Shown: positions 18,219-43,742 of the stretch, one piece after another
Position numbering within the stretch: the stretch's first letter is position 1
How the letters are laid out: each line of letters opens with the position of its first letter
From: an uncultured bacterium
GTDB lineage: Bacteria; Cyanobacteriota; Vampirovibrionia; Gastranaerophilales; Gastranaerophilaceae
Reading direction: 5' to 3'
Length of the DNA: 64,000 nt
Assembly (NCBI GenBank): GCA_950022695.1
Contig: CATLLN010000002.1
Span: forward strand, 450,520 to 514,519
Notes under the pieces: model-generated
What the model was told of the DNA's origin: nothing
Seen by the model: only the letters and a program-made list of their open reading frames with translations
Database searches by the model: none
Made by a program: the position numbers and the translations under genes

Positions 18219-19127
18219 ATGAAAATTACCTCAGTAAACAAGACTCTAAATTTTAGAGGTCAAAATCAAGATGTAAACTTTGATGCAACAAAAAAAGAAA
18301 AAAAGAAAAAATACGTTGACCCCCTTGCAAATTGGCCTGTTCGAGGTCTTGGTTATACCAATGACATTGGTATTGCTATAAATGAGCTTGCCCCGGCTAC
18401 AGCAAGACTTTTTTGGGTTCCTGCTTTAATGTATTTTGGTGCTGATATTTATGATAAATATAAAAATAAAGGCGACCAATACAAACCTAATGCTCAAAGA
18501 GCATTTAATCAAGCAGTTTTCCAAGCCTGCGCAAGTATTTTGTTCCCTGCAATCTTCGGCCACATCGGTATGAGCGCATTCTCTCAAATTGATAAGTACA
18601 GAGGCGAAAAACTTTCAACTAACGCAAAAGAACAAACACTACGTTTCATTAAAGCACATGCAACAATGGATAACGTAGCTGAATGCGGGGTTCAACGTGA
18701 TGAGCTGATTACTAATTTTGAAAAGTCATATGATAAATTCTATGCCGCAAAATCAAGACATTACAAACATAAAAATATCTTTGTAAAAATGTATGACAAA
18801 CTTTTAGCTAACTGTAAACACGGCGCTATCGCCAATTCCAACGAAGGAAAAATAAAAGCTTTTGCTAAAAAACAATTTATTGAAACAATAGACAACTGCC
18901 AAAATACAGAAACAGTAAAAACAGTTCTTGACAAAAAGATTTTCAAACTTAAAGCTTGGAAGTCTGCAGGAGCTTTTGCCGCAATTCTTTTAACGGCACA
19001 GGCAATTGACAAATTTGTTGAAAAAGTAATTATTAAAAAAGTAGTACAGCCAATTCAGCAAAACGTAAATAATAGAAGATATTCGTTTAACGATTTTAAT
19101 CAAACCAAAGCAGCAGAACAAAAATAA
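18219..19127 (+). CDS. Hypothetical membrane-associated protein with short N-terminal F-x-G signature
   Basis: 302 residues; RBS GGAG. I do not recognise it. The N-terminus (KITSVNKTLNFRGQNQ) belongs to a recurring short signature seen on several unrelated proteins here. Hydrophobic segments lie at about 62-76 (ATARLFWVPALMYFG), 95-118 (FQACASILFPAIFGHIGM) and near the C-terminus (GAFAAILLTAQAI). Between them is a basic helical region. It sits between the two regulator/prepilin cassettes and ends directly against the convergent XRE gene. Confidence 0.7.
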   Translation: MKITSVNKTLNFRGQNQDVNFDATKKEKKKKYVDPLANWPVRGLGYTNDIGIAINELAPATARLFWVPALMYFGADIYDKYKNKGDQYKPNAQRAFNQAVFQACASILFPAIFGHIGMSAFSQIDKYRGEKLSTNAKEQTLRFIKAHATMDNVAECGVQRDELITNFEKSYDKFYAAKSRHYKHKNIFVKMYDKLLANCKHGAIANSNEGKIKAFAKKQFIETIDNCQNTETVKTVLDKKIFKLKAWKSAGAFAAILLTAQAIDKFVEKVIIKKVVQPIQQNVNNRRYSFNDFNQTKAAEQK

Positions 19128-21218: not shown

Positions 21219-22655
21219 ATGATTAACATAAACGGGATAAATACCACTTCTAATATAAGTTTCAGCCAAAAACCTTCTCAAAAAGTACAATACAACAAAC
21301 CAAATTATCAAATGTATTCATATCTTAAAGATGAAAAAATTACAGTTGGTGAAGGTACCGAACTTTTATTGTACGGAATTTTAACTCAAGGAAAAGAATT
21401 ATTATCATCCATATTAGAACATCCGCTTAAAACAGCTGCTTTAATTGGCGGAACAACTTTAGGGCTTATGGCTCTTCCATTTATCGGAATCCCAACAGCC
21501 GTTGGCGGTGGAATTCTTGCCGCAGGTTTTGCCGCAATATCATTAGGAAAAACCGCTATACATACAGCAGAATTTGTAAAACATAATAAAAAAGGTTCTT
21601 ATGATATTGCAAGATTAAGTCTTGAACAGCTCGGAAAAGATACATTTGATTCAGCACTAACATTGCCATTTGTACCAAAAGCTATTACTAATATCAAAAG
21701 CTTTTCAAAATTTGGTAAAATAAACCTTAATTCAGAATTGATTTCCCAACTTAAAAATACTAAAAAGTTTTCAGAAAAATTAAGCACTTTAAAAGCCGTT
21801 GATAAAGAATTGTCCAGAAACTTAAACTTTCAATATGCCGTAGAAAAAGAATTATCACAACTTAAAAACCTGACAAAATACGAAAAAGATATCATCCGAA
21901 AAGAACTATTAGATTTCAATATTTCAACCAATAATATTCCCGAAATAGTAATTGATAAATGGGCTCAAGCCAAAGGTATTTTTACAAAACCGGACATTAA
22001 ATATGCTCCGTTTCCTAAAAATACAAATGCAATGGCAAATGCTTCCGATTGTTCTATAACAATAAATGATTATTCACAAAATATCCCAAATGTTTTTAAC
22101 AATCTTAAGGTAACATCAATAAAATCTATATCAAATAATGAATATTTGGTAACAACTAAAAATAACAAAACCGGAGCAATAATTACAGAAACTATAGAAA
22201 AAGAAATTTTAGATACATACAATCAACTAAGTAATATTTATAAAAATTTGTCATCAGAAGCAAAAAATATTTTAGTTATAATTCATGAAAGAGAACATAT
22301 TCATCAATTTGCGTCAATGTGTAGAATAAAAGGTTTTGACTGGCTAAAACATAGTATTACGGAACGAGGCAGAAACTTGCTGAATCAAATGACTGCAGAA
22401 ATGGAAAAAAAGAATATCTTAAGCAGTGATTATTTAAGAATATTTTCATACTTTAATAACCATAAATTAGAAACCCAAATATCATACATAAAAAAACCTA
22501 TAGAAATTGATGCCAGAGCAGCAGAATTTAAAGCCATTAACAATTTCACATTTAACATGTTGAACAAAGTATTCACAAGAACAAATAAAGCTCAAACTAT
22601 GTCTATAGAAAAAAATATTTTATTAAATACTACAAGAATTGAATCTCCAGCCTAA
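21219..22655 (+). CDS. Hypothetical protein with HExxH metalloprotease-like site and N-terminal signature
   Basis: 478 residues. The N-terminus (ININGINTTSNISFSQK) carries the recurring short signature. A hydrophobic double segment at about 68-110 (TAALIGGTTLGLMALPFIGI, GGGILAAGFAAISLG) probably spans the membrane. In the C-terminal third, IIHEREHIHQF gives H356-E357-H360, and IEIDARAAEF (E429, E436) follows about 70 residues later. This is the layout of gluzincin-type zinc peptidases. The family is not recognised and activity is inferred from the motif only. Its end overlaps the convergent DUF2971-like gene by 4 nt. Confidence 0.72.
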   Translation: MININGINTTSNISFSQKPSQKVQYNKPNYQMYSYLKDEKITVGEGTELLLYGILTQGKELLSSILEHPLKTAALIGGTTLGLMALPFIGIPTAVGGGILAAGFAAISLGKTAIHTAEFVKHNKKGSYDIARLSLEQLGKDTFDSALTLPFVPKAITNIKSFSKFGKINLNSELISQLKNTKKFSEKLSTLKAVDKELSRNLNFQYAVEKELSQLKNLTKYEKDIIRKELLDFNISTNNIPEIVIDKWAQAKGIFTKPDIKYAPFPKNTNAMANASDCSITINDYSQNIPNVFNNLKVTSIKSISNNEYLVTTKNNKTGAIITETIEKEILDTYNQLSNIYKNLSSEAKNILVIIHEREHIHQFASMCRIKGFDWLKHSITERGRNLLNQMTAEMEKKNILSSDYLRIFSYFNNHKLETQISYIKKPIEIDARAAEFKAINNFTFNMLNKVFTRTNKAQTMSIEKNILLNTTRIESPA

Positions 22656-27851: not shown

Positions 27852-30800
27852 ATGCGCATTTATAACATTAACTATTTTAACTTTACAGGTAAACGACAAG
27901 ATAGAAATACTGTAAATCAACTAAAATCCAATTCTTACGATTTAAATTACATCAATCAAAGAAAAATTTCACAGGCAATTGATAATTTGTCAGAAATTCC
28001 GGGTGAAGAAAACGTGAATTTTTTACTTGATGTTTCCGAGAATTTAAAATACGGAACAAATATTGATTTAGGAAAAAGTCCATACAATGATTGGCAGGTC
28101 AAATTAAACAACGCTGCGCAAAAAGCTATATCAAAATCCGAACATGAAGTCGGAGAACAATTGATTCAACGACTCAAAAAAGCAACCCCCCCCCGCAAAT
28201 CTTTAACTGATGATGAAAAAGAAATTCTAGAACTTAGAAATTCAATTTTGTCACAAGTTGATACTAATGAATTGGAAAAAATTGAAAACAAAAATATAAA
28301 AGCGCTTAACAGAAATCTAGATTACTTCATCATTTCATCAGAAGTTCCTCTATCTCAGAAACTTTATATTATGAAACGCTTAAATCATTTTATAAGTCCG
28401 GAATACAAAATCGATTCACAGCTTGAAGGTTACAAAACTCAAGCTCTTGCCGAGATAATTAACGACATTACTGTAGATACACCGGAATCAAATATTCCAA
28501 ATATAAAAGCTGTTAATCAGAAAAATCACGGCATGTGTGCTGCAATTTCTATTGCACGAAAAGCCCTTGCATATGAAGACAAAGCAAATTTTGTCGATAT
28601 GGTTATGTCTGAATTAGATGATACTCCTTATCTGATGATTTATGATATTTCAAAACTTGGCACAAATACAAAAGTACCAATAAATAAACCTTTCATGGAT
28701 TTTAAACATGCACTTGATATGGGATACAGAATTATTGATACATCCGCAATGTATTGGATGCAAGCTGCAAACACAACAGGTGTCGGTGAAGCTATCGGAA
28801 TGTACACAACGTTTGATAAAGAAAATTTTGATTTATTCCAAGATTCACACCTTATGCCATATTTAGAAGATAATCTTACAAGTCAGCAAGATTATTATAG
28901 AAGTTTGCTAAAAACAAAAACAATTTTAGAAACATATAAAAAACAAACAGAAAAATCTAAACAAAAAAATATTAATGAACTAAATAAAAAAGATTCCACT
29001 ATTCATCTCACTCAAAAGTTATCTAAACAATTAAATAAACTATTACAAAATATTTCACCTGACACACCTGTCAATAAATTATATAAAATAATAAATGATT
29101 TACTAAACCTTGAAGTTCCTACATCCGCAAAAGCTGATAAAATTACTGATTACAAAAGGAATTTCTTGTATCTTCCAAATGAAACAGATAGCGCAAAAAA
29201 AGAAAAAATTAAAGCATTTTTATCTATAGCACTAGATAAAAAAGATTCGGAAATGTTAGATGTAAATGCTGATGAAATACTTAATTTAGCATCTACAATA
29301 AATCGTCTAAATAAATCTGATACATACAGCTATGCAGCAAAAAACATTAATCGTGCAGAAACACTTTATAAAGCTGCATCGGCATACAGAACTCAATTCA
29401 TATTCGGACTGTATATCCCGGATAGATTAAATGATTTAACTATTAGTCTTAATATTCCGGATAGAGAAACCCGAATTATCAAAAATATGGAGTCATTAAT
29501 CAAAAAATTTGAACAAGGTAAACTAAATCCAAAAATAAAAGAAACATTGATTAATAATTTTGGAGTAAACGACACCAATGAAGAATTTATTGATGCGCTT
29601 CATACAAATATCGATGCAATGACTGTTATTACAACAGAGATTCTAGACAATTTATATAAATCAATACTTTCAGTCAGCAGAAAAAATGTACTTCTAAACG
29701 AAATTAAAACAACTCATAATGCAATTAAAGAAGGCTCAGATAAAATTATACTTACACAAACAGCTATTTCTTTGCAAATGAACAATAAAAATAAAAAGAA
29801 AATTCTGGAAACTCTAGAAAAATTTATTAAAGTTCTTGAATCTGAAAACTGCACAGAAGAAGAATTTATTACAATATATAATAAATTCGGCAAAAAGAAT
29901 CAAATGCAAGACTTTAAAGATACTTTTGAAAACCTCGGAATTTTACTATTCCAAGAGCCAAATGAAGACATAATCAAAGGTTTTAACGCTATTAACGGCT
30001 TAGCTCCGGATACTCCGATAGAAGAAACCCAAAAAGTATATGAAAAAATTGGTGAAAATTTCAATAATGTTTCATTATTGACATCACAATTACAAAATGC
30101 ATTAGAAGTAAAAGATGAAAATAATGAAGTTTTAAATACTGTAATTGACTCCGAAATTATTATTAAAAAACTGGAAAACAGCGGAGAGATTATTCCTGCA
30201 AAAGATTTGAAAAAATTTCAAGAACGATTTATTGCAATAAAGAAAGAACTTACCAATAATAATGGTACTAAAAAAGCTTTGAAAGATCTTCCTGCTGAGT
30301 TAAGACATTTTTCAAAAGCAGAGAAAGAACTTTTAGATACTATAGAATCAAGAATTAATGGCTGGTATTCACAAACATCAAGACTTTTAGATCTGCAACA
30401 CAAAATAATTCAAGAACCACTTGATGAATTACACAGAGAAATTGGTGTAAAAACCGGACAGTATTGGGTTTCTGCAGAAGGACACAGCGGTTTAAATTCA
30501 ACTCAACAAGTTCAAATTATTGAACAAATGACAGATAGACCATATTATATAGAATCTAACGGAAGAATCGCTGTTAATAAAATTAAAAATTCACCTTATT
30601 CAGGTGTTACAAATACATCTGTCAACCATAGAGAACCTGCAATGCATGCTCAATATATATCAGATATAAAACCAGTTCAAATAAATAATAAATCTCACGA
30701 AGTACTTTTCCATGATAACACTTGGGGACCAAATGAACATGAAAATATGTGGACTGATGACAACGGTATATTAAGAACAGACTACAGTAATGAATACGGT

Positions 30801-33653
30801 GGAGAATTAGGTTATATCACCAATGAAAAATACTTTAATGGAAAACTTCTTGATAACCTATTCTCTGAAATAGGACATGATGGAACAAGTGAATTTAAAT
30901 TCCCAATGCTAACATCAGTCATAACACCGGGAAGATATCCAAACGCAGATTCATACGTTCGACAAATCAGACAAAACTTGATACTTAACCCGCTTTTGTA
31001 TTTTGATGAACTAGAAAAATATGCACAAAATTTATCTCGTAATGAAATATTACAAACAATTAAAAAAACAAAAACTCTTGGTAAAAATTCAAACAAAAAA
31101 TTTATAGATATAGAACACAGAATCTTAGGAAATCCTCCTTTAATCCCGGGAATTGTATCTGCTGAAGATTACAACAACCTTTCTGATAAAGATGAATTAA
31201 AAATCTTATTAGAAAAAGTCGCGCTATCACGTTCATTCAGCGGAATTCCTGATTCAAAAATCTTCTATAAGAATACAACAATGGATGAGCTTGTAGAGCT
31301 GAAAAACCAAATTAGAAATGAAGCCCGCAAAAATTTCAATTACACTTTTGGTAAAAACCCTGAAATAACAAGGTTTGGAACAGAAAGCGTAAGAAAAGCT
31401 CTTAATAAAGAACTCGATAATTTTGCTAAAGAAAATAACTTTAAATTATCTGTTATGCAAGTAATTAATATAGTAAATTCTATGAATAAAATTTCAGAGA
31501 ATAAATTTGACGGTAATTTGGAAACAACAATTGAACTTATGACAGATAGTTTTACAAATTATTTAACTAAACATACACCTGTATTTGAAAATAAAAACGA
31601 AAAAATAGAAGATATTGCTAACAAAGTGCGAACTATGCTTCGTACAAATATGGGATTCACGTTAGCTGATTTGAACAAAACTTCATCTGACATTGTAAAA
31701 TGGATTGATGATAATTTCGAACCATCAACAGATGAAGAATTTGTTCAAATTTTCAAAAATCTTCAAAACATGACAACTGAAGAATTTAATGCTAAATATA
31801 ATTCAAAAATAACTGATGAAGCTATGGGTATAAAACCTATAACAGGTTATGATATCTTACAACAATTCAGGCTACTGGATGAAGGTGCAATGGATTCTGT
31901 ATTTTACATGCTGTATAATGAAGAACGTGGTTATACAACTAATATTAGCAAAACAATACCTTCATATGACTATGCTAAAACAAGCAGAACTCTTCGCGGA
32001 GCATACTATGCGGAAAATGGGCGTTCATTTGATGATATTTATCTAGATTTTTATTTCTCATTGCTTAGTCTTAACAATCATAAGAATTATGATAGATTGA
32101 AAACTTCAGCATTTAAAAAATATAATCTATTCCCGGCATATCCTAAAGTAAATTTAGAATCAAAAAAAGAAATTGAAAAATGTATTCAAACCTTCTTCAA
32201 CGAGATTATCGAAGCTACTGAAGCAATAGATGCATATAAAACTCAAGATAAATCATTTAAAATAATAGAACAATTAAAGAAATACTCTGGAAAGTTAAAT
32301 GATTCATCACCAATCTCATCCAGTCAGGAAAAATATATTAAAGATTTAATATATAAATTCCTGCAGATAAATGGTGAAGACACATCCGTTCAAGAAACAA
32401 TAGATGCCGCTTGCAAGATAATGGAACTTGAACAGGAAACAACCGGAAGTGAATATAAAAAACTTATTGAGATAATGTATAATGAATTAAAAATGTACTC
32501 AACTACGGCTGACGGCAAAACAATGGCAGAATCAGTAAAATTACAGATTGAAACCATTAAAGACAAAAAACGTGAATTTGTAATGAACGTAATTGATCCA
32601 AAATATCAAAATAAAGCATATGAAATACTTGATAAATGGATTAGTGCATTATCAAAAAATAACCCTAATGCAGATTATTATTTTGCCGATTTTGAAATGT
32701 TTTTCGAAAAACACAGAATAATGAAATCACCTGAAAAAATCTTTAATGAATATCTTCTGCTTCTCGCAAAACCGGAAGAAAAAGGAAGACATTATTCAAA
32801 TGCAGAAAAAAAACAACTTGAAGATGTAAAAGAAGTATACCGTACAAATATTCAATCACTGCTGATAAGTGCAAATATTCTTGAAATGCAGTACATACTA
32901 ATGAATTGCGCAAGGGAAGGCAATCTTAACATTGTACGTGATGAATTCAAAAACTCTCAAATTATGTTAAATGATGGCAGAATAGTGAATATGGATTCAG
33001 ATGAAGGCATTGCGGTATTAATTAAACCGCTTTTAGAAGACGAAGACCTCGATACACTTGTTATGTTTATTGAGCAGCTTGGTTTGACTGAACGCGTAAT
33101 TGAAATGTTTACAAAAGATATTAAATTCGACAAAGTTTATAAAAATATCAAACGTATAGATAATATTTTCACAGCTGTTTCAAAACAAACAGAAATCGTA
33201 CAAAAAGAACTTCAAAAACTTGGAAATATTGATAATGACCCGAATTACGAAGAAAAACTCAATATCGCAAAAGAAAATATTATCAAAAAATTCAAAAATA
33301 CAAATTACCGCAGAGCAATCAAAATTGTTGAAGAAGGATTCAAAAAAATAAATGAAGAAATAAAAGAACATCCTGAACACTCAAAAACTGCATACGTTCA
33401 TTTGTATATGGATAATGTCAAAACTGCAACTTTATATATTGCAACCAAACAGGTAGAAAATCTGAACATGAAATTACAGGCATACCAGAGAATTTATGAT
33501 TTAATAGGAAAGCTCAAAATTCGTAAGGATTCTCCTGTAAAACCGCTTCTTGAAAAATTCTTTGATGAGATACATAAAGTTGAAGAATTTGCACAAAATC
33601 ATACCCGAGATTACAAAAATCTTGATATTAAAACCGGAAATTATGCACAATAA
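27852..33653 (+). CDS. Giant (1933 aa) protein with split papain-like cysteine peptidase site
   Basis: No full-length family recognised. The N-terminus (RIYNINYFNFTGKRQ) bears the recurring short signature. At residues 221-234, AVNQKNHGMCAAIS mirrors papain's Gln-to-Cys loop: Q223 and C229 are spaced by six, as Gln19 and Cys25 are. Later, MHAQYI (H932) and HDNTWG (N956, W958, G959) mirror the papain His and the Asn-Ser-Trp-Gly loop. Between the halves lie about 700 helical, lysine/glutamate-rich residues, and another 900 helical residues follow. There is no signal peptide. A C9 tract at codons 112-115 could switch the reading frame. Peptidase activity is inference from the tetrad. The gene stands alone between two terminated units. 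Confidence 0.75.
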   Translation: MRIYNINYFNFTGKRQDRNTVNQLKSNSYDLNYINQRKISQAIDNLSEIPGEENVNFLLDVSENLKYGTNIDLGKSPYNDWQVKLNNAAQKAISKSEHEVGEQLIQRLKKATPPRKSLTDDEKEILELRNSILSQVDTNELEKIENKNIKALNRNLDYFIISSEVPLSQKLYIMKRLNHFISPEYKIDSQLEGYKTQALAEIINDITVDTPESNIPNIKAVNQKNHGMCAAISIARKALAYEDKANFVDMVMSELDDTPYLMIYDISKLGTNTKVPINKPFMDFKHALDMGYRIIDTSAMYWMQAANTTGVGEAIGMYTTFDKENFDLFQDSHLMPYLEDNLTSQQDYYRSLLKTKTILETYKKQTEKSKQKNINELNKKDSTIHLTQKLSKQLNKLLQNISPDTPVNKLYKIINDLLNLEVPTSAKADKITDYKRNFLYLPNETDSAKKEKIKAFLSIALDKKDSEMLDVNADEILNLASTINRLNKSDTYSYAAKNINRAETLYKAASAYRTQFIFGLYIPDRLNDLTISLNIPDRETRIIKNMESLIKKFEQGKLNPKIKETLINNFGVNDTNEEFIDALHTNIDAMTVITTEILDNLYKSILSVSRKNVLLNEIKTTHNAIKEGSDKIILTQTAISLQMNNKNKKKILETLEKFIKVLESENCTEEEFITIYNKFGKKNQMQDFKDTFENLGILLFQEPNEDIIKGFNAINGLAPDTPIEETQKVYEKIGENFNNVSLLTSQLQNALEVKDENNEVLNTVIDSEIIIKKLENSGEIIPAKDLKKFQERFIAIKKELTNNNGTKKALKDLPAELRHFSKAEKELLDTIESRINGWYSQTSRLLDLQHKIIQEPLDELHREIGVKTGQYWVSAEGHSGLNSTQQVQIIEQMTDRPYYIESNGRIAVNKIKNSPYSGVTNTSVNHREPAMHAQYISDIKPVQINNKSHEVLFHDNTWGPNEHENMWTDDNGILRTDYSNEYGGELGYITNEKYFNGKLLDNLFSEIGHDGTSEFKFPMLTSVITPGRYPNADSYVRQIRQNLILNPLLYFDELEKYAQNLSRNEILQTIKKTKTLGKNSNKKFIDIEHRILGNPPLIPGIVSAEDYNNLSDKDELKILLEKVALSRSFSGIPDSKIFYKNTTMDELVELKNQIRNEARKNFNYTFGKNPEITRFGTESVRKALNKELDNFAKENNFKLSVMQVINIVNSMNKISENKFDGNLETTIELMTDSFTNYLTKHTPVFENKNEKIEDIANKVRTMLRTNMGFTLADLNKTSSDIVKWIDDNFEPSTDEEFVQIFKNLQNMTTEEFNAKYNSKITDEAMGIKPITGYDILQQFRLLDEGAMDSVFYMLYNEERGYTTNISKTIPSYDYAKTSRTLRGAYYAENGRSFDDIYLDFYFSLLSLNNHKNYDRLKTSAFKKYNLFPAYPKVNLESKKEIEKCIQTFFNEIIEATEAIDAYKTQDKSFKIIEQLKKYSGKLNDSSPISSSQEKYIKDLIYKFLQINGEDTSVQETIDAACKIMELEQETTGSEYKKLIEIMYNELKMYSTTADGKTMAESVKLQIETIKDKKREFVMNVIDPKYQNKAYEILDKWISALSKNNPNADYYFADFEMFFEKHRIMKSPEKIFNEYLLLLAKPEEKGRHYSNAEKKQLEDVKEVYRTNIQSLLISANILEMQYILMNCAREGNLNIVRDEFKNSQIMLNDGRIVNMDSDEGIAVLIKPLLEDEDLDTLVMFIEQLGLTERVIEMFTKDIKFDKVYKNIKRIDNIFTAVSKQTEIVQKELQKLGNIDNDPNYEEKLNIAKENIIKKFKNTNYRRAIKIVEEGFKKINEEIKEHPEHSKTAYVHLYMDNVKTATLYIATKQVENLNMKLQAYQRIYDLIGKLKIRKDSPVKPLLEKFFDEIHKVEEFAQNHTRDYKNLDIKTGNYAQ
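28186..28194 (+). repeat. Homopolymeric C9 tract inside the giant gene
   Basis: Nine consecutive C within an AT-rich coding region (codons 112-115, Thr-Pro-Pro-Arg), upstream of the proposed catalytic Cys229. Such tracts are classic slipped-strand sites; a one-base change would stop translation early. Confidence 0.85.
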
Positions 33654-34918: not shown

Positions 34919-35281
34919 TCAAGCATTGTAATCTAGTTTTTGACCTTGATGTGAAGATTTAAAAGCAAGCGCTTGCATTTTTATGCTTTCGGCTTGCGCT
35001 GCAACTCTGTAATCTTGTGCTGAAGGATCTCCCGGTGCTAAAGCTGCACGAATAACAATATTCGCATGATCAATTGTCTGCTGCGGATTAGCTTTATTTA
35101 ATACAGGCATTTTTATCGGAACATGACCTGATACAGGAATCCCATCAGCATTTCTTTCAATAGAAATTGCACCTGCAAAGCTTCCGCCTGCTGTTTTATG
35201 CGCCATCTCATGAGCGTAAATATGGTTATAATTTCTATTAATAAGTTCCTGTTTTGCCACACCATTCAACATACTACACAC
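34919..35281 (-). CDS. SprA-related putative metalloprotease
   Basis: 120 residues. YAHEMAHKTAGGSFAGA is the HExxH-containing signature of the SprA-related family, often called putative metalloprotease CJM1_0395 type. The rest (RNADGIPVSGHVPIKMP and a C-terminal helix with QDYRVAAQAESIK) also fits. Members are usually longer, with an extra N-terminal region; this one is the catalytic core only. The substrate is unknown. Confidence 0.78.
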   Translation of the reverse strand: MCSMLNGVAKQELINRNYNHIYAHEMAHKTAGGSFAGAISIERNADGIPVSGHVPIKMPVLNKANPQQTIDHANIVIRAALAPGDPSAQDYRVAAQAESIKMQALAFKSSHQGQKLDYNA

Positions 35282-39010: not shown

Positions 39011-39040
39011 AGTTTCACGCGGAGTAATCCGTTGTGGTAT

Positions 39041-40328: not shown

Positions 40329-40404
40329 TGTCTCAAAACGAGTGATGAATGTGTACACAGGCATTACAAGGAATTTGAGACAATGGAAAATCAAATTGAG
40401 ACAA
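40329..40404 (+). promoter_or_regulatory. Repeated TGTCTCAAA / TTTGAGACA sites around the transposase start
   Basis: TGTCTCAAA (40329-40337), TTTGAGACA (40374-40382, ending one base before the G of ATG) and TTGAGACAA (40396-40404, inside the gene). TTGACT at 40321 could be a -35. The sites could be transposase-binding end sequences, an operator, or both. Confidence 0.5.
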
Positions 40405-42104
40405 GTAAATTTATCCCCGAAAAAGCAAAGCAAATCGCACTTGCAAGGCTTGATTTACTCCATAAGTGGCTTGAGTTTCGCCGAAAATCGAATATCAAAA
40501 TTCAAGCAGACTATGATTTTGTCAAATTGCACAACACGACGGATTCGCATTTACGTCAGGTTTTGGGTAAAGTTTCTCGAGGTTCGCTTCATCGCTGGAA
40601 TGCAATGCTTGATGGTTCCGAAGACTACGAAAAACTTCTTCCGCAATACAGATATTCCAAAATCGGTGAGTTCAGAACCACTTTGACCGACGAAGAAATC
40701 AAAATCTTTATGGGCTTGCTTTTGCATCCAAATCGGTTTTCTATTGGGAAAGCCACGGCACTTACTAAATACAAATTGAAAGAGCAAGGACAGGATTTTA
40801 TCCCTGCTGATGCTACTTTCCGCCGTTATGCAAAATGGTTTAAGGCAAACAATTATGACAAATGGGTGTTAGCCCGAGACGGCGAAAAAGCCTTGTCTGA
40901 TAAGGTTGAACCTTATATCAAACGCGATGCTTCGCTATTGGAAGTCGGTGATATTCTTGTCGCTGACGGGCACAAACTGGCGTTTCAAGTGATAAATCCG
41001 TTCACGGGCAAACCAAGTCGTGCGACTTTAGTCGGATTTTTGGATTGGAAATCGACTGCCCTTGTGGGTTACGAGATTATGCTTGAAGAAAACACCCAGT
41101 GCATCGCATCCGCCCTTCGAAACGCAATAATAAACCTTGATATGGTGCCGAAAATTATTTATCAAGATAACGGCAGAGCATTTAGGGCGAAATATTTCAC
41201 TAACGACAAGGGGTTTAACGAACTCGGGTTTCAAGGGCTTTACTCAAAACTCGGAATTGAAACGGTTTTTGCCCGACCTTATAACGCCAGAGCGAAAGTC
41301 ATCGAGCGATTTTTCAAAGAGTTTCAAGAAGGCTTTGAAAAACTTATGCCAAGCTATGTCGGAAGCAACATCGCAAATAAACCGGCTTACCTGATGCGAA
41401 ACGAAAAACTGCATTCTGCTTGGCACAATGACTACATTCCAACGATTGAAGAAACAATAAAAATGATTGACATGTGGCTGAATTTCAAAAATTCCCAAAA
41501 CTGCCCCAATGCACCAAACAAAACAATCACAGAGGTTTTGGAAGATAGAAAATGCCAAAACATAAACCCCGACACTCTTGATGATTTAATGCTTGCAACC
41601 GAGGTTAAAACAATTCAGCGAAACGGCATTAGGTTCTTAGGTTGCGACTATTTTGACGAACGGCTTTACGGGTTCAAAAGCAAAGTGCTAATCAAATACA
41701 ACCTCTTCGACCTTGCAAAAATCAAAGTTTTCACCCCAAAAGGTGAGTATTTATGCACTGCGCAGCGTGTAACAGAAACCCATCCGATGGCAAAATTATT
41801 GGGCGATGTCAAAGACTACGAGGATTACAAACAAAAAATCGTTCGACAAAAACAACTCAAAAAGAAAACCGTAAACGCAGTTAAAAACTACTTTTCGACC
41901 GAAGAAATAAAATACCTTGAAACAAAAATGGATGAAGTTATTTCACAGCCCGTTCAAACTTCGTTCAAAGAGAGTTCAAAAGCCGTTCAAACTATTTTCA
42001 AGAATAATTCGCAAAAATATGAATACTTAATCAAACATGATCCAAACAACCCTTGGATTGCAGAATTTAAACAAACAAAGGAGTACAAATTGCTGTATGA
42101 ATAA
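40383..42104 (+). CDS. Mu-type DDE transposase
   Basis: 573 residues. The central integrase core has ILVADGHKLAFQV (first Asp), IIYQDNGRAFRAKYF (second Asp) and NARAKVIERFFKEF (Glu), spaced as in Mu transposase. The N-terminal 170 residues are helical and HTH-like (DNA-end binding). The C-terminal part is beta-barrel-like, then basic, and should contact the ATPase. AAGGA lies about 12 nt before the ATG. The 3' part of the gene contains an 11-bp-period GTTCAAA array that is independent of codon phase. All three acidic residues are present, so it may be active. Confidence 0.88.
   Translation: MENQIETSKFIPEKAKQIALARLDLLHKWLEFRRKSNIKIQADYDFVKLHNTTDSHLRQVLGKVSRGSLHRWNAMLDGSEDYEKLLPQYRYSKIGEFRTTLTDEEIKIFMGLLLHPNRFSIGKATALTKYKLKEQGQDFIPADATFRRYAKWFKANNYDKWVLARDGEKALSDKVEPYIKRDASLLEVGDILVADGHKLAFQVINPFTGKPSRATLVGFLDWKSTALVGYEIMLEENTQCIASALRNAIINLDMVPKIIYQDNGRAFRAKYFTNDKGFNELGFQGLYSKLGIETVFARPYNARAKVIERFFKEFQEGFEKLMPSYVGSNIANKPAYLMRNEKLHSAWHNDYIPTIEETIKMIDMWLNFKNSQNCPNAPNKTITEVLEDRKCQNINPDTLDDLMLATEVKTIQRNGIRFLGCDYFDERLYGFKSKVLIKYNLFDLAKIKVFTPKGEYLCTAQRVTETHPMAKLLGDVKDYEDYKQKIVRQKQLKKKTVNAVKNYFSTEEIKYLETKMDEVISQPVQTSFKESSKAVQTIFKNNSQKYEYLIKHDPNNPWIAEFKQTKEYKLLYE
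41952..42002 (+). repeat. 11-bp-period GTTCAAA iteron array (plus orientation)
   Basis: GTTCAAA at 41952, 41963, 41974 and 41985, with a degenerate fifth copy (TTTCAAG) at 41996; every step is exactly 11 bp. It lies within the transposase coding sequence, 95 nt before the ATPase start codon. An 11-bp step is not a multiple of codons, so the conservation is at DNA level. Confidence 0.8.
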
Positions 42105-42777
42105 GACTTTTGTAAGAACAAACAACGTCAAAAATTTTATCGGACTTTTGGAAAATCTGGTCAACAAACCCAAAAACATTCCAAGAATGGGACTTGTGTA
42201 TGGCGAGCCGGGACTTGGCAAAACACAAACTGCTCTTTGGCTTGCGTGCAAGTATGATGGAATTTATCTTCGAGCTTCAAATCTAATGACAGGCAGATGG
42301 CTTCTTGACGGCTTGATAAAGGAAATGGATGAGTTGCCGAGATACTTGACTTCAGATAACTTCAACCTTGTGGTGAAAAAACTCAAAGCCAATCCGAAAG
42401 TGATTTTTATTGATGAAATCGATTACCTAATGAACAATTTTAAGACTGTTGAAATCCTGCGAGATCTACACGACGAGACCGACTGCCCAATTATTATGAT
42501 TGGAATGGGTTTGGCACATAGAAAGCTTGAACGATACAAACACCTTTATGACAGATTTTCAGAGATTTTGAAATTTGAAACCTTTGGTGTGAGCGACATT
42601 GCTCAGATTGTAAATGAACTTTCGCAAGTGCCGATTTCTACCGACGCGATTGAATACATCCATCAAAAACACAACCGATTTAGGCAAATTGTTCAACTGA
42701 TAAACAAACTCGAAACTTTAGCGAAAGAAAATAATCTGACTGAAATCACTTTGGAAATTGTGAGGCAAGTGCTATGA
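42097..42777 (+). CDS. MuB/TnsC-like AAA+ ATPase
   Basis: 226 residues from the ATG at 42097, overlapping the transposase end by 8 nt. Walker A is GEPGLGKTQTA and Walker B is VIFIDEIDYLM; IIMIGMGLAHRKLERY is a sensor-like stretch. It resembles MuB or IstB/TnsC-type ATPases that choose target DNA and activate the transposase. AAAGGAG lies 13 nt upstream, slightly far. The next gene overlaps its stop by 4 nt. Confidence 0.85.
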   Translation: MNKTFVRTNNVKNFIGLLENLVNKPKNIPRMGLVYGEPGLGKTQTALWLACKYDGIYLRASNLMTGRWLLDGLIKEMDELPRYLTSDNFNLVVKKLKANPKVIFIDEIDYLMNNFKTVEILRDLHDETDCPIIMIGMGLAHRKLERYKHLYDRFSEILKFETFGVSDIAQIVNELSQVPISTDAIEYIHQKHNRFRQIVQLINKLETLAKENNLTEITLEIVRQVL

Positions 42778-43334
42778 ACATCAAGAAATTAGCAAAGTAT
42801 TTAAAAGAATTTACCCTTGATGAAATTGAAATGATAGCCGAATGCGATGTCTCAGTAGAACTAGAAAAACTTATGGCTGAGGGCAAATTGTCGCTTGAGG
42901 ACGGAATTTACAAATATCAGGATTTTGAAAACAAGGTCGAGTTTGCCGTATTTGTAAACTCTGAAACCGAAACCCAAAATATAACTTTGAAAACAGTTTC
43001 AGAAATCTTTATGAAGGATTATGCGGCAAATTTCTGTAAACCCAATACCATAAAGACTTATACAGCAATTTTAAGAACAAATGTAATCCCGATTTTAGGA
43101 ACCAAAAAAGTTCGAGAGATTTGCACAGAGGATATTAAAAGGTTTTACACGATTTGCAAACGGCGCGGAATGGGCGAAAGACGACTGAAAAACTCGCTTG
43201 CACTTTTGAATCAAATTTTAAAATACTGTAAACGAGAAAACCTCGCAAAAACCAATTGCGAATTTCAGGTGCGACGGCTGACGGACAAAAACAAATTTAG
43301 TATTAACAGAATAATCTTTGAGGAGAATATATAA
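42774..43334 (+). CDS. Protein with an integrase-type core-binding (SAM-like) domain but no catalytic domain
   Basis: 186 residues. Residues about 70-165 (VSEIFMKDYAANFCKPNTIKTY, KKVREICTEDIKRFY, LKNSLALLNQILKYC) match the N-terminal DNA-binding domain of tyrosine recombinases. The protein then stops without the R-H-R-Y catalytic domain. It starts on an ATGA overlap with the ATPase gene and runs directly into the next gene, so it appears to be kept as a working part of the operon rather than debris. It may bind element DNA. Confidence 0.65.
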   Translation: MNIKKLAKYLKEFTLDEIEMIAECDVSVELEKLMAEGKLSLEDGIYKYQDFENKVEFAVFVNSETETQNITLKTVSEIFMKDYAANFCKPNTIKTYTAILRTNVIPILGTKKVREICTEDIKRFYTICKRRGMGERRLKNSLALLNQILKYCKRENLAKTNCEFQVRRLTDKNKFSINRIIFEENI

Positions 43335-43742
43335 ATGGCAAAATTTAATAAATTAAAACAAGCGCAAAAGCTTTATGTGCAAGAAAATAAGACACTCGGT
43401 GAAATTGGAATGGAACTTGATTTGTCGCGTAGGACATTGTTTTATTGGAAAAAGCAATACGACTGGGACAAGCGGAAATTTGAATACGAACACGAAAAAG
43501 ACGCATTCAGCCAAGAACTGCTTGAACTTGCAAGAAAAATGATGCGAAAACTTAACAACGACTTAGACAAAAACTCGCATACAAACCAATCCGAGATTTA
43601 TTCATTCATGAACATCCTAAAAAACATTCCGTTGCTCAAAGAATACGAAGCAACTATTGCTCCAACCAAACCCAAACAACAAAACTTCCTCACTCCCGAA
43701 CAAGTCCGCGAAATCGAACGTGAAGTTTTAGGGATGGAGTAA
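43335..43742 (+). CDS. DUF1804-like HTH protein
   Basis: 135 residues, starting at the base after the previous stop. An N-terminal helix-turn-helix (KTLGEIGMELDLSRRTLFYWKK) is followed by a charged helical part. This matches small DUF1804/terminase-small-subunit-like proteins of Mu-like phages. It ends the transposition module; a 165-bp AT-rich gap without a clear terminator follows. It could instead be a regulator of the module. Confidence 0.7.
   Translation: MAKFNKLKQAQKLYVQENKTLGEIGMELDLSRRTLFYWKKQYDWDKRKFEYEHEKDAFSQELLELARKMMRKLNNDLDKNSHTNQSEIYSFMNILKNIPLLKEYEATIAPTKPKQQNFLTPEQVREIEREVLGME

Follow-up and report, generated by a model that had tools for sequence, protein, structure and literature searches.

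Gastranaerophilales are gut relatives of cyanobacteria. The window analysed here, a stretch of 64,000 nt with a G+C content of 33%, belongs to a 1.95 Mb genome assembly and carries on its forward strand a single frame for a protein of 1933 amino acids (27852..33653). The frame is open throughout without any internal stop and has orthologues in other genomes; the gene read from this stretch in an earlier note is real. All parts of it named below lie on the same strand. Its neighbours are a small ORF, ftsZ, the gene of a small HExxH protein, proA and proB. This arrangement is kept within the genus only. Outside the genus the neighbours differ and no conserved gene partner was found. Since the neighbourhood is common only inside the genus, the context gives no function. 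The HExxH protein between ftsZ and proA (34919-35281) has 120 aa with the motif AHEMAHKTAGG and was seen in 8 of the 22 loci compared, every one from the genus. Further downstream (40383-43742) lie an ORF of 573 aa that resembles transposases, then one of 246 aa that resembles AAA ATPases, and small ORFs that look like DNA-binding proteins. Going by its sequence this region, near a tRNA-Met at 39040, looks like a mobile element of the Mu/Tn7 type.

Residues 1-199 (27852..28448) form a conserved N-terminal region. It opens with a short peptide ending in F-x-[GS]-x-R-x-D, which is nearly universal among the family members. As noted earlier, a signal peptide is absent from this region. The same holds for a transmembrane segment, and the entire 1933-aa protein lacks a membrane-type hydrophobic segment (highest 19-residue Kyte-Doolittle mean 1.14). 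The N-terminus had also been described as a recurring signature. This is true for the family of orthologues, where F-x-[GS] is conserved, but across the genome the recurrence amounts to a weak excess: the strict pattern occurs at the start of 4 out of 414 ORFs, compared to 6 out of 2197 internal-Met controls. Proteins opening with a short peptide that ends in [NSHT]F[KRT]G are encoded at 18219-19127 of the window and on contig C2 of the genome at 280472, 368988 and 384791. Moreover, a 478-aa protein (21219-22655) with the N-terminus MININGINTTSNISFSQ and a zinc-peptidase-like motif HEREHIHQ has this loose N-terminal style in common with the 1933-aa protein.

The candidate catalytic residues are found in two distant pieces. 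The first piece comprises residues 200-340 (28449..28871; conservation windows 0.65-0.76) with Q223 (28518..28520), the putative oxyanion-hole Gln, and C229 (28536..28538), the putative nucleophile, in the context AVNQKNHGMCAAIS. The second piece, residues 861-1003 (30432..30860), contains an element SGL..NQ...E-x-MT[GD][RK] followed by H932 (30645..30647, MHAQYI), the putative general base, and by N956 (HDNTWG) within a conserved calpain-type Asn motif, N956-[TS]-W958-G959-x2-E962-x4-W967-x-D969 (30717..30758). All four residues are located where the earlier note had placed them. In between lies a long variable insert (residues 341-860, 28872..30431), which is probably helical to judge from low-confidence models. 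The second piece is followed by a fast-evolving C-terminal region (residues 1004-1933, 30861..33650) with no invariant residue and no Pfam domain. AlphaFold models of the window protein together with one relative (75-79% identity) were of very low confidence, with a mean pLDDT of 37 for residues 150-1010 and of 33 for residues 840-1016.

Conservation was evaluated in an alignment of 51 proteins including 46 full-length orthologues, which have a median pairwise identity of 30% and collapse to 29 clusters at 60% identity. The tetrad does not vary freely. Q223, C229 and H932 are present in 51/51 aligned proteins, and N956-[TS]-W-G is found in all 49 proteins reaching that stretch. This is the clan CA order, a conserved Gln/Cys followed by His/Asn. 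The full-length orthologues share 42 invariant columns. Among these, C229 is the sole invariant Cys (of 5), H932 the sole invariant His (of 28) and Q223 the sole invariant Gln (of 75), while N956 shares its invariance with just one other Asn (of 180). Picking these four by residue type alone would succeed with a chance of ~1e-6. Conservation peaks at residues 151-340 and 851-1003 and is low in 341-850 and past 1003; the last invariant residue is at or before position 997. The tetrad thus lies in the only well conserved parts of the protein.

The spacing of the four residues is kept as well. The gap between Cys and His spans 478-765 residues across all orthologues (about 700 in the window protein), whereby 478 is seen in one genus, and the gap between His and Asn spans 20-31 residues (24 in the window protein). 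Even the single orthologue from a second family retains the full pattern (Q229 with HGMC, H940, NTWGKLEHLNTWVD). Compared to a 79%-identical relative, dN/dS is 0.19 for the protein as a whole, with values of 0.14 and 0.12 for the catalytic pieces and 0.23 for the insert; the gene is under purifying selection. Two residues within the insert, R513 and E775, are invariant, which suggests that the insert is not mere filler. Taken together, the invariance of the tetrad and the long Cys-His gap in every orthologue lend good support to an active site of papain-like (clan CA) type that is interrupted by a variable insert of ~500 residues. With regard to the split tetrad itself, the conservation strongly backs the proposal of the earlier note.

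Within the genus, a protein search detected orthologues in 34 of 46 genomes. At the level of the family, 142 of the 383 genomes sampled have one, covering 22 of 41 genera. Beyond the family, a single genome, from a second family within the order, has an orthologue. Class- and phylum-wide profile searches with each catalytic half revealed no orthologues outside those two families. The match scores are sharply separated, with true orthologues at E < 1e-50 versus a fragment or two chance matches. Two weak C-half matches in genomes G295 and G191 (E 7e-4 and 0.003) turned out to be unrelated TPR-like proteins. Apart from fragments at contig ends, each orthologue consists of a single long frame, ~1375-2213 aa in length, and none of them represents a compact relative without insert. 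A paralogue is not found in the own genome, nor are relatives in two viral-contig scans. The gene is stand-alone and chromosomal, accessory but old.

Single-sequence and profile searches against Pfam, NCBIfam, PHROGs, PADLOC and PDB gave no credible match for the protein, and removal of the insert did not lead to a match in Pfam or PDB either. The profiles of calpains (C2, PF00648), papains (C1A, PF00112) and bleomycin hydrolases (C1B, PF03051) all remained below the cut-off; PF00648 matches nothing anywhere in the own genome. That no known peptidase family shows significant sequence similarity counts against a peptidase. It would agree with a large scaffold protein that keeps the four residues for structural reasons alone. 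Such a non-enzyme is nevertheless very improbable: the sole invariant Cys and His belong to motifs of the clan CA type, and non-enzymatic homologues usually have lost the Cys or the His.

A papain-like fold may also serve another reaction, as in a transglutaminase, deamidase, amidase or isopeptidase. However, an Asn (not Asp) as third residue combined with a Gln six residues before the Cys is the arrangement of peptidases, and no transglutaminase or USP family of Pfam matched. We consider this reading improbable, even though Ala follows the Cys and big accessory regions are likewise present in USP enzymes (PMC7935551).

The earlier note took the His/Asn pair for C1-type. This assignment is not supported, since no C1 profile matches and the context around the Asn is wrong for C1. 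In papain the gap between His and Asn is 16 and hence shorter than the 24 residues seen here, which is instead the spacing of calpains (H to N +24 in calpain-3). Within the Asn motif, N, W, G and E are present in 46/46 orthologues, W967 in 45/46 and D969 in 41/46. Glu at Asn+6, Trp at +11 and Asp at +13 are the same as in the solved calpain-3 and -9, NPWGQVEWNGSWSD. None of the three is found in any of 19 C1A and 9 C1B references; all 19 C1A references have Trp at Asn+6. The bacterial C2 references are mixed (Glu at +6 in 4/17), so the Asn motif speaks for kinship with calpains without proving it. Two C2 signatures are missing. The residue after C229 is A, G, T or V across the family and never aromatic, whereas C2 has Cys-Trp (or Tyr/Phe), and the Asn is followed by Thr or Ser in place of the Pro of C2 (Asn-Pro).

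For comparison of profiles, the family profile with the insert removed was aligned by hhalign to C2, C1A and C1B sets collected from the same phylum. Against the cyanobacterial C2 set the score was 24.1, with E-x-MT[GD]R placed on the calpain TGR, then His on His and Asn on Asn. The Gastranaerophilales C2 set scored 23.2 with the same TG element and the His in register, and the pooled C2 set 22.0 with an alignment running from Gln/Cys to His. The E values for C2 are 0.016-0.034, whereby about 1% of decoys score as high. Column-shuffled decoys have a mean of 15 (sd 2.7) with 1-2 of 150 reaching 23, and the reversed profile yields ~13. The C1A set reached 21.3, close to the marginal C2 scores, but only over 14 columns round Gln-Cys; C1B scored 17.7 at an unrelated place.

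Based on these motifs and alignments, the second half of the core looks more like calpain than papain. A competing view is that the protein is a clan CA hydrolase of papain-like fold that is no nearer to calpain than to C1, C1B, C58 or C39, or that forms its own family, its calpain-like motif being convergent. The [TS]-W-G after the Asn has the C1 form, compared to NPWG in calpain, and both the C1A score on the Gln-Cys stretch and the ~1% decoy level of the C2 signal point the same way. We regard convergence as unlikely, though it is the most serious of the alternatives; the three motif positions and the His-Asn distance fit calpain-3, and 0 of the 28 C1A/C1B references have them. The protein is probably a thiol protease of the calpain/papain type with a calpain-like core. 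As Cys-Trp and Asn-Pro are absent, we name it calpain-like and do not file it as a member of C2.

Relatives are rich in calpain-like proteins, which counts for a calpain-like core. Genomes of the Gastranaerophilaceae (loci L113-L140; genomes G039, G054, G108, G163 and others) contain divergent calpain-like ORFs, as many as three per genome, which are 270-2211 aa long with QGxxGDCW ... LLTGK ... HAY ... NPWDS. Many of them barely exceed the noise of PF00648, and one of 1619 aa has two Cys motifs of the QGxxGDCW type. In another genome of the same family, two frames of ~1200 aa carry C1 papain domains (L145, G295:C58).

Overall, the protein is likely a large, soluble, single-copy cysteine peptidase of clan CA, or a closely related thiol hydrolase, with a calpain-like core. 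We infer its fold, its catalysis and the role of the insert as follows. Residues ~200-340 and 861-1003 would fold into one core, and the ~500-residue insert would exit the domain after the half with the Cys and before the half with the His and Asn. C229 would act as nucleophile and H932 as base, with Q223 lining the oxyanion hole. N956 would orient the His ring and be shielded by W958. Papain and calpain use their residues in this way. The insert and the 930-residue C-terminal region most likely are a scaffold limiting substrate access to the cleft. On the fuller proposal we are evenly divided, namely that Gastranaerophilales alone possess an as yet undescribed family of clan CA peptidases, in which a calpain-like core, the insert and the C-terminal region together make a giant gated protease.

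To our knowledge, bacterial calpain relatives are little studied, and there is almost no protease biochemistry on Gastranaerophilales. In a literature search we found no work on cysteine proteases or calpain-like proteases of these bacteria, and the family with its split core appears to be undescribed. A giant conserved single-copy protease of this kind would show how far the calpain-like core tolerates insertions. The finding also draws attention to a broader group of calpain-like proteins in Gastranaerophilales genomes that has gone largely unnoticed. As to the earlier statement that no described peptidase has such a layout, we found no description of papain/calpain-type tetrads of this kind in these bacteria. 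For clan CA in general the statement goes too far, as USP4 is split as well (PMC7935551).

Among known systems, calpains (PF00648; the calpain-3 and -9 cores and bacterial calpain-like proteins) share with the putative split protease the Gln six residues before the Cys, G-x-C, HA-x-Y downstream of a GG/NQ...TG element, the His-Asn gap of 24 and N-x-W-G-x2-E-x4-W-x-D. Its SGL..NQ...E-x-MT[GD][RK] element resembles the calpain GG...LTG. Unlike calpains, it has Ala for Trp after the Cys and Thr/Ser for Pro after the Asn, stays below detection by PF00648, bears the ~500-residue insert in its core and lacks any known calpain accessory domain. Papains of C1A have Gln-x5-Cys, His and N-[ST]-W-G in common with it; it differs by the missing profile match, the lack of Trp at Asn+6 and of the GY thereafter, the longer His-Asn gap and the absence of a signal peptide or recognised propeptide. 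Bleomycin hydrolase/PepC (C1B) resembles it in the NSWG-type Asn motif and in having no signal peptide, but there is no profile match and G-[KN]-K-G-[YFI] past the Asn motif is missing. The layout itself has a parallel in USP deubiquitinases (C19), which have a clan CA catalytic domain with a long insert between the Cys and His boxes; they differ in their motifs, their eukaryotic origin, their zinc-binding fingers and ubiquitin as substrate. In USP4 the insert lies between a Cys box at 303-320 and a His box at 864-922, and activity is tuned by the insert and the N-terminal domain (PMC7935551). By analogy, the insert of the putative split protease may have a similar gating role.
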